Shown: positions 26,211 through 29,089 of the stretch, one piece after another | How the letters are laid out: each line of letters opens with the position of its first letter | Numbering within the stretch: position 1 is the stretch's first letter | Origin: a bacterium | GTDB lineage: Bacteria; UBP4; UBA4092; JAOAEQ01 | Assembly (NCBI GenBank): GCA_026416715.1 | Contig: JAOAEQ010000005.1 | Coordinates: 65,190-129,189, forward strand | Reading direction: 5' to 3' | Length of the DNA stretch: 64,000 nucleotides | Notes under the pieces: model-generated | What the model saw: only the letters and a program-made list of their open reading frames with translations | Database searches by the model: none | What the model was told of the DNA's origin: nothing | Program-made: the position numbers and the translations under genes

Positions 26211-28952
26211 CTATAATTCTTTAACCGCATCAACAATTTTTGAATCTAATCCTTTGAAATTCTGGATATATTCAATTCGTTCAAGTCGTAATTGATGTAC
26301 TAATTCTTCTATTTTAACCTCGGGATAAAATTTTGTTAATTCAAATCGATTGATATCCATACCTTCTACACTGTTAGGAACCATCACATTCCAATATTCA
26401 TCTTTCTTCCATTCAATAGAACCTCGCGCAATACCTCGAATGATTGCAGCCATTTCTGGTATCTGGACTCGTAGTACTTTTTGTCGGACAACTTTTGTCC
26501 CCTCTTCAGAAATTTCGGTTATTTCACCTACTCCGCCAGTGTTCAATAAATAACAATGTACTTTCTCCGGATGTGATTTTAAAAAGTTGTAGAAAATATT
26601 GCCTTCTTCAGCTTCACTACCAACTATGAAAGGATTAGTTCCTACTTCACGCACGGATTCGCCAGCTCGGCGCGGGTCTGAACCCGAACTCTCGATTGAT
26701 TCTCCAAGCATAAACGCAGCTGCTGCTTGTTCGATAGTTAATTTGGATACGATTGGAACGACTGTATTCCTGCGAGTGATAAAAGCAACAATCATACCGT
26801 CAACTTCTTCTAACGGCGGTAAATTAATACTCGGACTTGCATAGGTACCAAAATCTGAGCGCTGCATAATTCCGCGTCCATTTCCGGTAAGCGTTTCATC
26901 ATCAAAAAGAACATTACCGAGATAATCTACCATAACATTTTCGAAAATAGCGTTGGGAGTTGTTGCCGCTTGATAGATTAATGGCTGGACTTCCGGATTA
27001 ACCCCTTCCGTTTTAAGATAGAACCCTTGTTCTGTTCCTAAACAAGCCCCATCTTTCCGTAATGCAACAAAATCATCCTGTACGATTTCTATTCCTTCAC
27101 CTTTTCCGGTCAAACCATGGTCATGACAGGAATGAGTTGTTTTCCCTGTGGCAGTTAATCCGAAAATAATCATACTATATTTACGAATCTTACCATCTAT
27201 ACCACGAGCTTTCAGGATTTTTGCGCCTGCATGTAACCCAAGCATACCTTGTTCTTTCGCGTGCCACATTGCCATCCGCAAAAATCCTTTTTTTGCTTCT
27301 CCATAATAATCTGACCCAAGCACATAGGTTATCCCAATTTCCGGAAACACCAATATCTGTCGGTCTTTTTCTTGCCATTCTGGAATATAAACGAGGTTAA
27401 GCAATGGTCCTTTTGTTTTTTCTTTTAAAGGCAACAATGTTTGGTTAATCATATGCGCTAACCGAACCATCTCTTTTCGATGAACGGAAACAAATAAACG
27501 GCATCGAGGCGCAAAATAATTATTATCTCCCATAGTTCGTTCAGTGCAGACGAATGGGGCTCGTTTTAAATATTTATTGACTTCTTCAATTGTTCGGGGT
27601 AGACTTTTTAATATTTCTTTCTGTCGCGGATTCAATTTTGACTGCATTACCCGTGGACTACCAACATACACGGTCAATCCTGCACTGCGATTTTTTACGG
27701 TAGAAACAAAATTATAATTCCCGAACCGAGTTTTCGTACCATAAGGTTCTGCCATGCGTTTCGCTTCAAGCGGAGTAATATGTTGTACATTCGACTGTTG
27801 ATATAATTCCGTTACAGCTGCACTTAATAATTTCGTATCAATCTGTGGAAGTTTTAATTCTAAAGCAACCGGCATAACAATTTCTTTCATCGGTTTCATA
27901 TATTCGCCGGAAATAATAATCTCGCGCATTTTCCGTTGGACTTCGAAAACCGGATGGACAGTATTAATTTGATATGCAGCCGCGAAATTGAATACTTCTT
28001 TAAAAAATTCGGTTTGTAATGCTTTCCGTTGATTGTTGATTACTAAAGCATGCGGATTAAAAAACGGCTGTTTGGCATTGACTAATAGAGATAACGCTTC
28101 TTCTGGTTTCAATCGCTTCGCTAATTTTGGATCATTCACGTCAGGTACAAGAAAAAAGAATAGTTTGATACGAGTCGTATCGAGGTATTTCTCCTGACCA
28201 CCGATCCAAAGTGGGTCGAGCATTATATATCCATCTTTTTCTTTACATTTTTTCAACAGTTCTTTAATTCGCGGATTAATTTTAGCTGTGCTGGATTTGA
28301 GATAAAATTTTCTATCAGAAACATGAGTGGATAACCGTCCTTTTTCACCACCAAGATGTTCAACATAAATCCATTCATTCGAATGAATCCGAGCGCGATC
28401 CATTTGTAATAATAAAAAACTATGAGTCGAACGACCACTATCGGTCAATCCGGTGATAACGACTCCTTCACCATTAACATCAACGAGTGCTCCCCGGATA
28501 AAATGTACCGCATTGTGCTCTTCAGAAATATCTAACGCTATGCCAAGCGCTAAAGACCGTACTTCACCATAAAAGTTTGAACTCAATATAAATCCGGTTT
28601 TACTTCCTGAATGATAAAATAACCCCGGTGCCATATCAGTTATTCCACTAATTGCATAGAGTGTCCCATGAGGACGTAGACTATGGTCAAGGAGTGCAGG
28701 ATACCAATTTTCACGCCAGAAATCATCTAGATGCGCATCATTAGTTCGTAATTGCAAAATTATCCCATTGAGGTTTGCGTTCCAAATATAAAGTGAGTCG
28801 TATCCGAGATATCGTTCAGCAAGTTTAATCAACTCATTTCGTTCCTGCAGTGAAATATTAAGGTTACGTGATATCGGTTTCGGTTCAGCCAATGGTATCA
28901 CTTCATTTACTTTTTCATGGCTTGGTTTTGGTTTATCTTTTTCTTTTTTCAT
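26211..28952 (-). CDS. Tandem PEP carboxykinase (ATP)-like protein
   Basis: 913 residues, far longer than the usual ~530. The C-terminal half (about 400-913) is PEPCK-like: TVYVGSPRVM, GSDYYGE (546-552), MLGLHAGAK, kinase P-loop GLTATGKTT (598-606), QDDFVA (metal/nucleotide), IFENV, FITRRNTVVPIVSKLT, and a C-terminal adenine loop (LLNTGGVGE). The N-terminal half (about 40-350) repeats the layout: SSNFYGE (124-130) and GLTDSGRST (168-176), where the P-loop Lys is Arg and other catalytic signatures are lost. So it looks like an internal duplication with one degenerate copy. Active half would interconvert oxaloacetate + ATP and PEP + ADP + CO2. AAGGATGG precedes ATG 28952. Exact substrate not certain. 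Confidence 0.72.
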   Translation of the reverse strand: MKKEKDKPKPSHEKVNEVIPLAEPKPISRNLNISLQERNELIKLAERYLGYDSLYIWNANLNGIILQLRTNDAHLDDFWRENWYPALLDHSLRPHGTLYAISGITDMAPGLFYHSGSKTGFILSSNFYGEVRSLALGIALDISEEHNAVHFIRGALVDVNGEGVVITGLTDSGRSTHSFLLLQMDRARIHSNEWIYVEHLGGEKGRLSTHVSDRKFYLKSSTAKINPRIKELLKKCKEKDGYIMLDPLWIGGQEKYLDTTRIKLFFFLVPDVNDPKLAKRLKPEEALSLLVNAKQPFFNPHALVINNQRKALQTEFFKEVFNFAAAYQINTVHPVFEVQRKMREIIISGEYMKPMKEIVMPVALELKLPQIDTKLLSAAVTELYQQSNVQHITPLEAKRMAEPYGTKTRFGNYNFVSTVKNRSAGLTVYVGSPRVMQSKLNPRQKEILKSLPRTIEEVNKYLKRAPFVCTERTMGDNNYFAPRCRLFVSVHRKEMVRLAHMINQTLLPLKEKTKGPLLNLVYIPEWQEKDRQILVFPEIGITYVLGSDYYGEAKKGFLRMAMWHAKEQGMLGLHAGAKILKARGIDGKIRKYSMIIFGLTATGKTTHSCHDHGLTGKGEGIEIVQDDFVALRKDGACLGTEQGFYLKTEGVNPEVQPLIYQAATTPNAIFENVMVDYLGNVLFDDETLTGNGRGIMQRSDFGTYASPSINLPPLEEVDGMIVAFITRRNTVVPIVSKLTIEQAAAAFMLGESIESSGSDPRRAGESVREVGTNPFIVGSEAEEGNIFYNFLKSHPEKVHCYLLNTGGVGEITEISEEGTKVVRQKVLRVQIPEMAAIIRGIARGSIEWKKDEYWNVMVPNSVEGMDINRFELTKFYPEVKIEELVHQLRLERIEYIQNFKGLDSKIVDAVKEL

Positions 28953-29089
28953 ACGTTATTAACCATCCTTATTTAATCTAACAATTGACTGATCTATTCA
29001 TTTTGTCAAATTAGAGAAAAATATAATTCCGTTTTATAGAACATTGTTAAAAATTCAATAGATAAAAGTAGTTTAAAAAATTAAAGATA

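Follow-up and report, generated by a model that had tools for sequence, protein, structure and literature searches.

Gene organization and the C-terminal domain

The 64,000-nucleotide stretch of bacterial DNA analyzed here (the window; contig JAOAEQ010000005.1 of assembly GCA_026416715.1, positions 65,190 to 129,189 of the forward strand) encodes a two-domain form of phosphoenolpyruvate carboxykinase (PEPCK). PEPCK controls the flow between sugar and organic-acid metabolism and catalyzes the reversible conversion of oxaloacetate and ATP to phosphoenolpyruvate (PEP), carbon dioxide and ADP. The gene lies at 26211..28952 on the minus strand, as do all its features given below, and is a single open reading frame (ORF) of 913 amino acids with an ATG start. 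Its product comprises an N-terminal PEPCK-fold domain (residues 28-350, 27903..28871) defined by a structure model and a fold match, a linker (residues 351-376, 27825..27902) modeled partly at low confidence, with a mean predicted local distance difference test (pLDDT) score of 61 for the block 351-360 and 56 for the block 361-370, and an ATP-type PEPCK domain (residues 377-913, 26214..27824) recognized by PF01293, NF006821 and a fold match.

The C-terminal half resembles ATP-dependent PEPCK (EC 4.1.1.49; PF01293, NF006821) in fold, P-loop, and metal and substrate residues. Residues 419-866 match PF01293 (E value 6e-52; 177 bits, cut-off 26.5) and residues 381-911 match the PEPCK subfamily model NF006821 (428 bits, cut-off 369); the score against the pckA equivalog TIGR00224 falls far under its cut-off (73 bits of 590), so that the domain ranks as a divergent PEPCK. 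The full-length AlphaFold model has a mean pLDDT of 87.9 and a predicted template modeling score (pTM) of 0.65; in it, residues 377-913 align with the Thermus PEPCK 2pc9_B at a Z score of 35.6 (483 aligned residues, root-mean-square deviation (rmsd) 2.9). The E. coli PEPCK residues Y207, K212, K213, H232, K254, D268, D269 and R333 correspond to Y549, K554, K555, H574, K604, D626, D627 and R693 of the window protein, and all eight are invariant in 31/31 sequences of our alignment (A5, window included); Arg422 was matched to Arg65 by eye only. All but His574 fall in the substrate and metal motif YYGEAKK (residues 549-555, 27288..27308; E. coli Tyr207, Lys212 and Lys213), the intact P-loop GLTATGKT with Lys604 (residues 598-605, 27138..27161) and the intact Asp626-Asp627 pair (27072..27077; E. 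coli Asp268/Asp269), together with Arg693 (26874..26876; E. coli Arg333). A first-pass annotation, made from the sequence alone, had called this half a PEPCK with an intact P-loop, GLTATGKTT, and the family models, fold and invariant catalytic residues bear this out; we infer that it is a working ATP-type PEPCK.

PF01293 has a single match at E<=1 in the genome, which is listed as 100% complete, and this domain is that match; GTP-PEPCK, PYC_OADA, PEPcase and PEPcase_2 gave no match there (the search did not extend to PPDK, PEP synthase or malic enzyme). Among the families searched, the window protein is thus the sole PEP-oxaloacetate enzyme found, which would make its control important to the cell. 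It differs from other ATP-dependent PEPCKs in having about 375 extra N-terminal residues that form a second PEPCK-fold domain. The pyrophosphate (PPi)-type PEPCK, an enzyme of large size, is like it in being a long PEPCK. A review (PMC8100219) reports PPi-type PEPCK as absent from archaea; according to the same review, bacterial ATP-PEPCKs are monomers, and reports of allosteric effectors exist for some only.

Fold and relatives of the N-terminal domain

The model of the N-terminal domain (residues 21-370) has a pLDDT of 91.3 and a pTM of 0.88. The 50 Foldseek matches listed are PEPCKs throughout. In a VIA fold comparison the domain aligns with 1ii2_B at Z 29.1 (321 aligned residues, rmsd 3.3) and with E. 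coli 2pxz at Z 27.5 over chain residues 60-477, and the match therefore covers most of PEPCK; HPr kinases are not among the 50 best rows of this comparison and may be present further down. The PEPCK-like nature of this half, an early prediction that a different fold would have overturned, is thus supported by structure prediction.

Searched against solved chains at E<=1, the profile of the domain retrieved HPr kinases (E 4e-5 to 1e-4) but not a single PEPCK. It also matched the HPr kinase-like protein of the window genome (E 1.2e-8, 64 columns), more weakly and over a shorter span than it matched the C-terminal half. No Pfam family scored above its cut-off on the N-terminal half, with Hpr_kinase_C (PF07475) at 13.6 bits against 33.3; the best stand-alone member of the domain family tested reached 29.3 bits. 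The family is therefore like HPr kinase/phosphorylase in that its P-loop segment aligns, and unlike it in that the similarity is limited to about 60-80 columns under the Pfam cut-off, the fold match spans most of PEPCK, and the nucleotide site of the window domain is dead. The HPr kinase-like gene of the window genome is a separate one (L178:1087-2028, contig C7) with an intact P-loop, flanked by ribosome hibernation factor-like and phosphoglycerate mutase-like genes (named by eye).

The two halves carry the motif pairs described at first pass, at the spacings then given: SNFYGE at residue 125 and GLTDSGRSTHS at 168 (43 residues), SDYYGE at 547 and GLTATGKTTHS at 598 (51 residues). BLAST comparison of the halves scored 37.4 bits (E 6e-7) when composition was corrected for and 35.4 bits (E 2e-6) when it was not; at the uncorrected setting the best of 2000 shuffled N-terminal halves came to 28.5 bits. 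A profile-profile alignment of the homologues of each half extended over 225 columns (probability 98.2, E 3e-14). Self-alignment thus supports homology beyond chance, and the shuffles together with the shared fold rule out a chance motif match. The literal motifs exaggerate the resemblance: the G and the E of YGE each occur in 2 of the 15 PEPCK-fused N-terminal halves (window included), and 'GLT' at the N-terminal P-loop occurs in the window protein only. SxxYGE and GLTxxG, unconserved in the N-domain family, were dropped as family signatures, and we take the halves to be homologous because profiles and fold agree and not because of motif words.

Distribution, architectures and history

A pattern-based scan of 84,980 species, one genome each, returned 88 relatives of the N-terminal domain, of which 80 were kept; two short peptide patterns were used, and the counts are what those patterns reach. 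Fusions of the domain to PEPCK account for 14 of the 80; by record title, 13 come from archaeal metagenome-assembled genomes (Euryarchaeota, Altiarchaeales, Sigyn-, Jord-, Frey-, Hel- and Bathyarchaeota) and the other from the bacterium RBG_13_61_14. The phylogenetic survey called for at first pass thus yielded 14 further loci, and their occurrence in separate records rules out an assembly or fusion artefact. Another 62 of the 80 are fusions of aspartate aminotransferase with the N-domain, mostly titled Aminicenantes, with Zixibacteria and others; three stand alone (L042, L043 and L107), and one (L100) ends at a contig edge. Of 386 genomes sampled for their relatedness to the window genome (that genome included), 8 contain the domain. 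It also turned up in 49 of 300 genomes from the phylum to which L107, a Bathyarchaeota record, belongs; most of these matches sit in open frames of about 310-350 amino acids with little else in them, and regions around 20 of the 49 were taken for the stand-alone set. We found no description of the two-domain architecture in the open-access literature searched, judged by titles and abstract openings. Two further members are of separate interest: a 574-residue bacterial stand-alone relative (L023:5420-7144) has an intact GTGKST, extra inserts and a weak match to HprK-related kinase A, and an archaeal genome (G578) contains both a domain copy in a 904-residue frame, consistent with a PEPCK fusion, and an intact stand-alone copy (L129, L160), a natural dead/live pair for comparison.

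Trees were built by quick searches, with support from the SH-like approximate likelihood ratio test (SH-aLRT) only, and contain long branches (L023, L036 and L037 among others in the N-domain tree; L007, L018, L025 and L026 among others in the PEPCK tree). The N-domain tree and the site counts below exclude L021, L022 and L024, which come from the same genomes as L048, L093 and L036, as well as L100. The 101-row N-domain tree gathers the PEPCK fusions into a single branch (SH-aLRT 100) and places the aminotransferase fusions in another (97); the domain apparently joined PEPCK in one event. The window protein lies within the mainly archaeal PEPCK-fused clade, where its fork with the Euryarchaeota/Altiarchaeales and Bathyarchaeota groups is unsettled (support 85); the nearest row by path is a Euryarchaeota record (L028). 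This placement suggests, and does not prove, that the window gene was transferred from archaea. In the PEPCK tree (71 rows), for which G394, G404 and G418 did not contribute their second NF006821 matches of lower score, a group of 51 with support 99 holds the 15 fused proteins, 33 PEPCKs encoded near the domain and 3 encoded elsewhere in aminotransferase-fusion genomes, and one PEPCK subfamily therefore tends to accompany the N-domain. The remaining 20 of the 71 fall outside it, including 5 from aminotransferase-fusion genomes (L118-L122), in which ordinary PEPCKs are thus present as well. The fused PEPCKs by themselves form one branch with a support of only 46.

Decay of the nucleotide site and constraint

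The P-loop of the window N-domain, GLTDSGRS (residues 168-175, 28428..28451), has Arg174 in place of Lys, as first noted in GLTDSGRST. The acidic pair is replaced by Asn192-Glu193 (28374..28379; Asp-Asp in 24/24 stand-alone homologues), a conserved His by Arg153, and the equivalent of PEPCK Lys213 is Ser133. An intact GK[ST] with Asp-Asp is found in all 24 stand-alone proteins, none of the 15 PEPCK-fused and 1 of the 62 aminotransferase-fused ones (Fisher p 2e-22, a value that takes no account of relatedness). Taken by itself, the P-loop Lys persists in 8/15 PEPCK-fused and 57/62 aminotransferase-fused proteins; its loss, noted at first pass for the window protein, is thus no hallmark of the two-domain form. 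The His near the P-loop strand is present in 24/24 stand-alone proteins and is Arg in 15/15 PEPCK-fused and 55/62 aminotransferase-fused members. The Lys213 equivalent is Lys in 0/15 PEPCK-fused proteins, 0/25 stand-alone rows (a count that predates the removal of L100) and 14/62 aminotransferase fusions, and PEPCK chemistry is therefore not expected in the first two classes. The tree requires at least 4 changes in Lys status and 7 in the second Asp.

The non-catalytic motifs WNAN, FWxENW and MLDPxWIGG are conserved in PEPCK-fused and aminotransferase-fused classes alike. For Asgard pairs sharing a Lys-to-Val change, the ratio of nonsynonymous to synonymous substitution (dN/dS) of the N-terminal half was 0.04 (L033/L034) and 0.062 (L034/L035), with 0.085 and 0.084 for the respective C-terminal halves. 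These low values indicate that the domain is kept without the P-loop Lys under constraint about as strong as that on PEPCK; the test covered Asgard pairs, and the window gene lay outside its set.

Gene neighborhoods of the domain family

In 25/62 loci the gene immediately downstream of the aminotransferase fusion encodes PEPCK, in 7 of these with overlapping open frames; a PEPCK gene lies nearby on the other strand in 7/62 and is elsewhere in the locus in 1/62. In the other 29 no PEPCK occurs in the stretch examined, which for 17 of these loci reaches 3 kb or more on each side. Among 33 genomes with a PEPCK-less domain locus, an NF006821 match was found elsewhere in 9. Nine loci from Aminicenantes/Saccharicenans and related genomes (L059, L074, L076-L079, L084, L089 and L091) retain the fusion, mostly with GTKKT-like P-loops, in genomes that have no NF006821 match at E<=1e-5. 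A membrane-scaffold gene of the flotillin/SPFH family sits immediately 5' of the aminotransferase-N-domain gene in 46 of the 48 loci with room upstream (L048, L050, L060 and L072 among them), Band_7/Flot domains having been identified in L021. These observations suggest a gene order of flotillin, aminotransferase/N-domain and PEPCK, although the three were never counted jointly.

Stand-alone members occur directly downstream of archaeal PEP carboxylase (PF14010; L107 and L157), beside phosphofructokinase (L164), beside phosphoglycerate mutase (L170 and L175) and beside carbohydrate phosphorylase (L163, L164 and L166 by Pfam; L165, L167 and L171 by eye), the phosphorylase loci being one close group that counts as few events. 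Central-metabolism neighbors were seen at 10/24 stand-alone loci and none were noticed at 14, by eye in the ORFs displayed. Re-citrate synthase was the basis for considering the 2-isopropylmalate synthase genes beside some archaeal fusions as a link to oxaloacetate; their best models are those of ordinary 2-isopropylmalate synthase, and the link was rejected.

Proposed role of the N-terminal domain

We consider it probable, at about 60%, that the N-terminal domain is a pseudo-enzyme regulatory domain of the PEP-oxaloacetate-aspartate node, here attached to a working ATP-type PEPCK. The computed basis is its fold, homology, loss of catalytic residues, single fusion branch, constraint, and linkage to PEPCK and aspartate aminotransferase. 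The regulatory pseudo-kinase suggested at first pass is retained as the best reading of a PEPCK fold with lost catalytic residues; ligand binding and regulation themselves are what we infer. A sensor domain is favored because the domain accompanies oxaloacetate and PEP enzymes (PEPCK, aspartate aminotransferase and, at two loci, PEP carboxylase) and because the fold is kept under selection after Lys loss, with non-catalytic motifs common to both fused classes. The stand-alone relatives look like catalytically competent, HPrK-like 'mini-PEPCKs'; one such domain would have joined PEPCK, apparently once, after which the nucleotide site would have decayed in the fused forms while the remainder stayed under strong constraint. 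The domain most likely acts allosterically, binding a nucleotide or a metabolite of the node, and would thereby govern how active the attached PEPCK is or in which direction it runs. A comparable case, described in PMC8100219, is malic enzyme with a fused phosphotransacetylase-like domain, where an idle domain is joined to an enzyme of the same node and is needed for its allosteric control; the folds there are unrelated, whereas the dead domain of the window protein has the fold of its partner. If strong selection has kept on a PEPCK a dead copy of the PEPCK fold, core metabolism would offer a clear example of regulation by a pseudo-enzyme, and the three architectures, intact when standing alone and decayed when fused, would form a natural series for how a kinase fold becomes a sensor.

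Several observations weigh against this interpretation. The 8 of 15 PEPCK-fused proteins that keep the P-loop Lys include 5 that keep the second Asp as well, and some fused proteins may still bind or turn over nucleotide. The 24/24 intact stand-alone proteins are a non-random set, 20 from high-ranking genomes among the 49 positives and 4 others. Synonymous sites in the dN/dS test are near saturation (proportion of synonymous differences, pS, 0.49-0.98), and two Lys-lost pairs (L033/L035 and L032/L033) were saturated and unscorable for the N-terminal half. The placement of the halves relative to each other is uncertain, as the full-length pTM of 0.65 indicates. Five other PEPCKs from aminotransferase-fusion genomes (L118-L122) sit among ordinary PEPCKs, outside the group of 51. 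Of the 33 genomes with a PEPCK-less domain locus, 24 have no NF006821 match at E<=1e-5 (completeness not stated), so the domain does not always serve PEPCK.

A purely structural role is unlikely, though it deserves consideration: the domain would mimic a second PEPCK subunit as a pseudo-dimer, or drive assembly, without a ligand. A copy of the fold can mimic a homodimer, and purifying selection persists without the P-loop Lys; the same domain on an unrelated pyridoxal phosphate-dependent aminotransferase, where mimicry of a PEPCK dimer is less sensible, argues otherwise, as may the conservation in both fused classes of the three non-catalytic motifs. It is improbable that the domain is still active as a kinase, through a nonstandard site with Arg in place of Lys and Glu in place of Asp, and phosphorylates PEPCK, the aminotransferase or a metabolite. 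Such activity would fit the intact HPrK-like site of stand-alone relatives, the profile similarity to HPr kinase (E 4e-5 and E 1e-8) and the Lys retained in just over half of the PEPCK-fused members, but the window protein has substitutions at every one of the Lys, Asp-Asp and conserved His positions, and Lys status and the second Asp have changed repeatedly on the tree.

Oxaloacetate is common to aspartate aminotransferase and PEPCK, and the domain might channel or buffer it between them without regulating either. The frequent adjacency of the two genes and the possibility that a PEPCK fold binds oxaloacetate speak for this; we give it little credence, given a PEPCK-fused form that has no attached aminotransferase and the 24 of 33 genomes with a PEPCK-less domain locus in which no NF006821 PEPCK was detected. 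Least credible is the internal duplication advanced at first pass, in which one PEPCK gene was doubled and its first copy decayed. The halves do share ancestry and fold, and their profile match (E 3e-14, 225 columns) exceeds that to a single HPr kinase sequence (E 1e-8, 64 columns). The N-terminal half nevertheless belongs to a separate family, found elsewhere alone or fused to aminotransferase; the tree of that family puts its PEPCK-fused members on one branch, which points to a single joining event, and a search of solved chains with the N-terminal profile (E<=1) picks up HPr kinases but no PEPCK. The claim of a duplication is therefore set aside in favor of the fused regulatory domain.

The two-domain protein may be a new variant of a known enzyme, and the stand-alone family may be more than that. 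We tentatively suggest, at somewhat less than even odds, that the N-domain family represents a branch of the PEPCK/HPrK superfamily not described so far, in origin a kinase of archaeal central carbon metabolism and a counterpart of HPr kinase, recruited twice as a decaying regulatory domain. If so, PEPCK and aspartate aminotransferase, at one metabolic node, would share one kind of sensor.

Other features of the locus

The neighbors of the window gene (a hotdog thioesterase, a GDP-mannose pyrophosphorylase-like gene and a sigma-54 gene) give no pointer to its function, and a promoter and terminator scan found 8 promoter-like sites against a shuffle mean of 11.5, which is no excess. Reading of the sequence 5' of the ATG suggests a possible ribosome-binding site, the purine-rich AAGGATGG at 28963..28970 on the minus strand, with AAGGA about 14 nucleotides upstream of the start codon.

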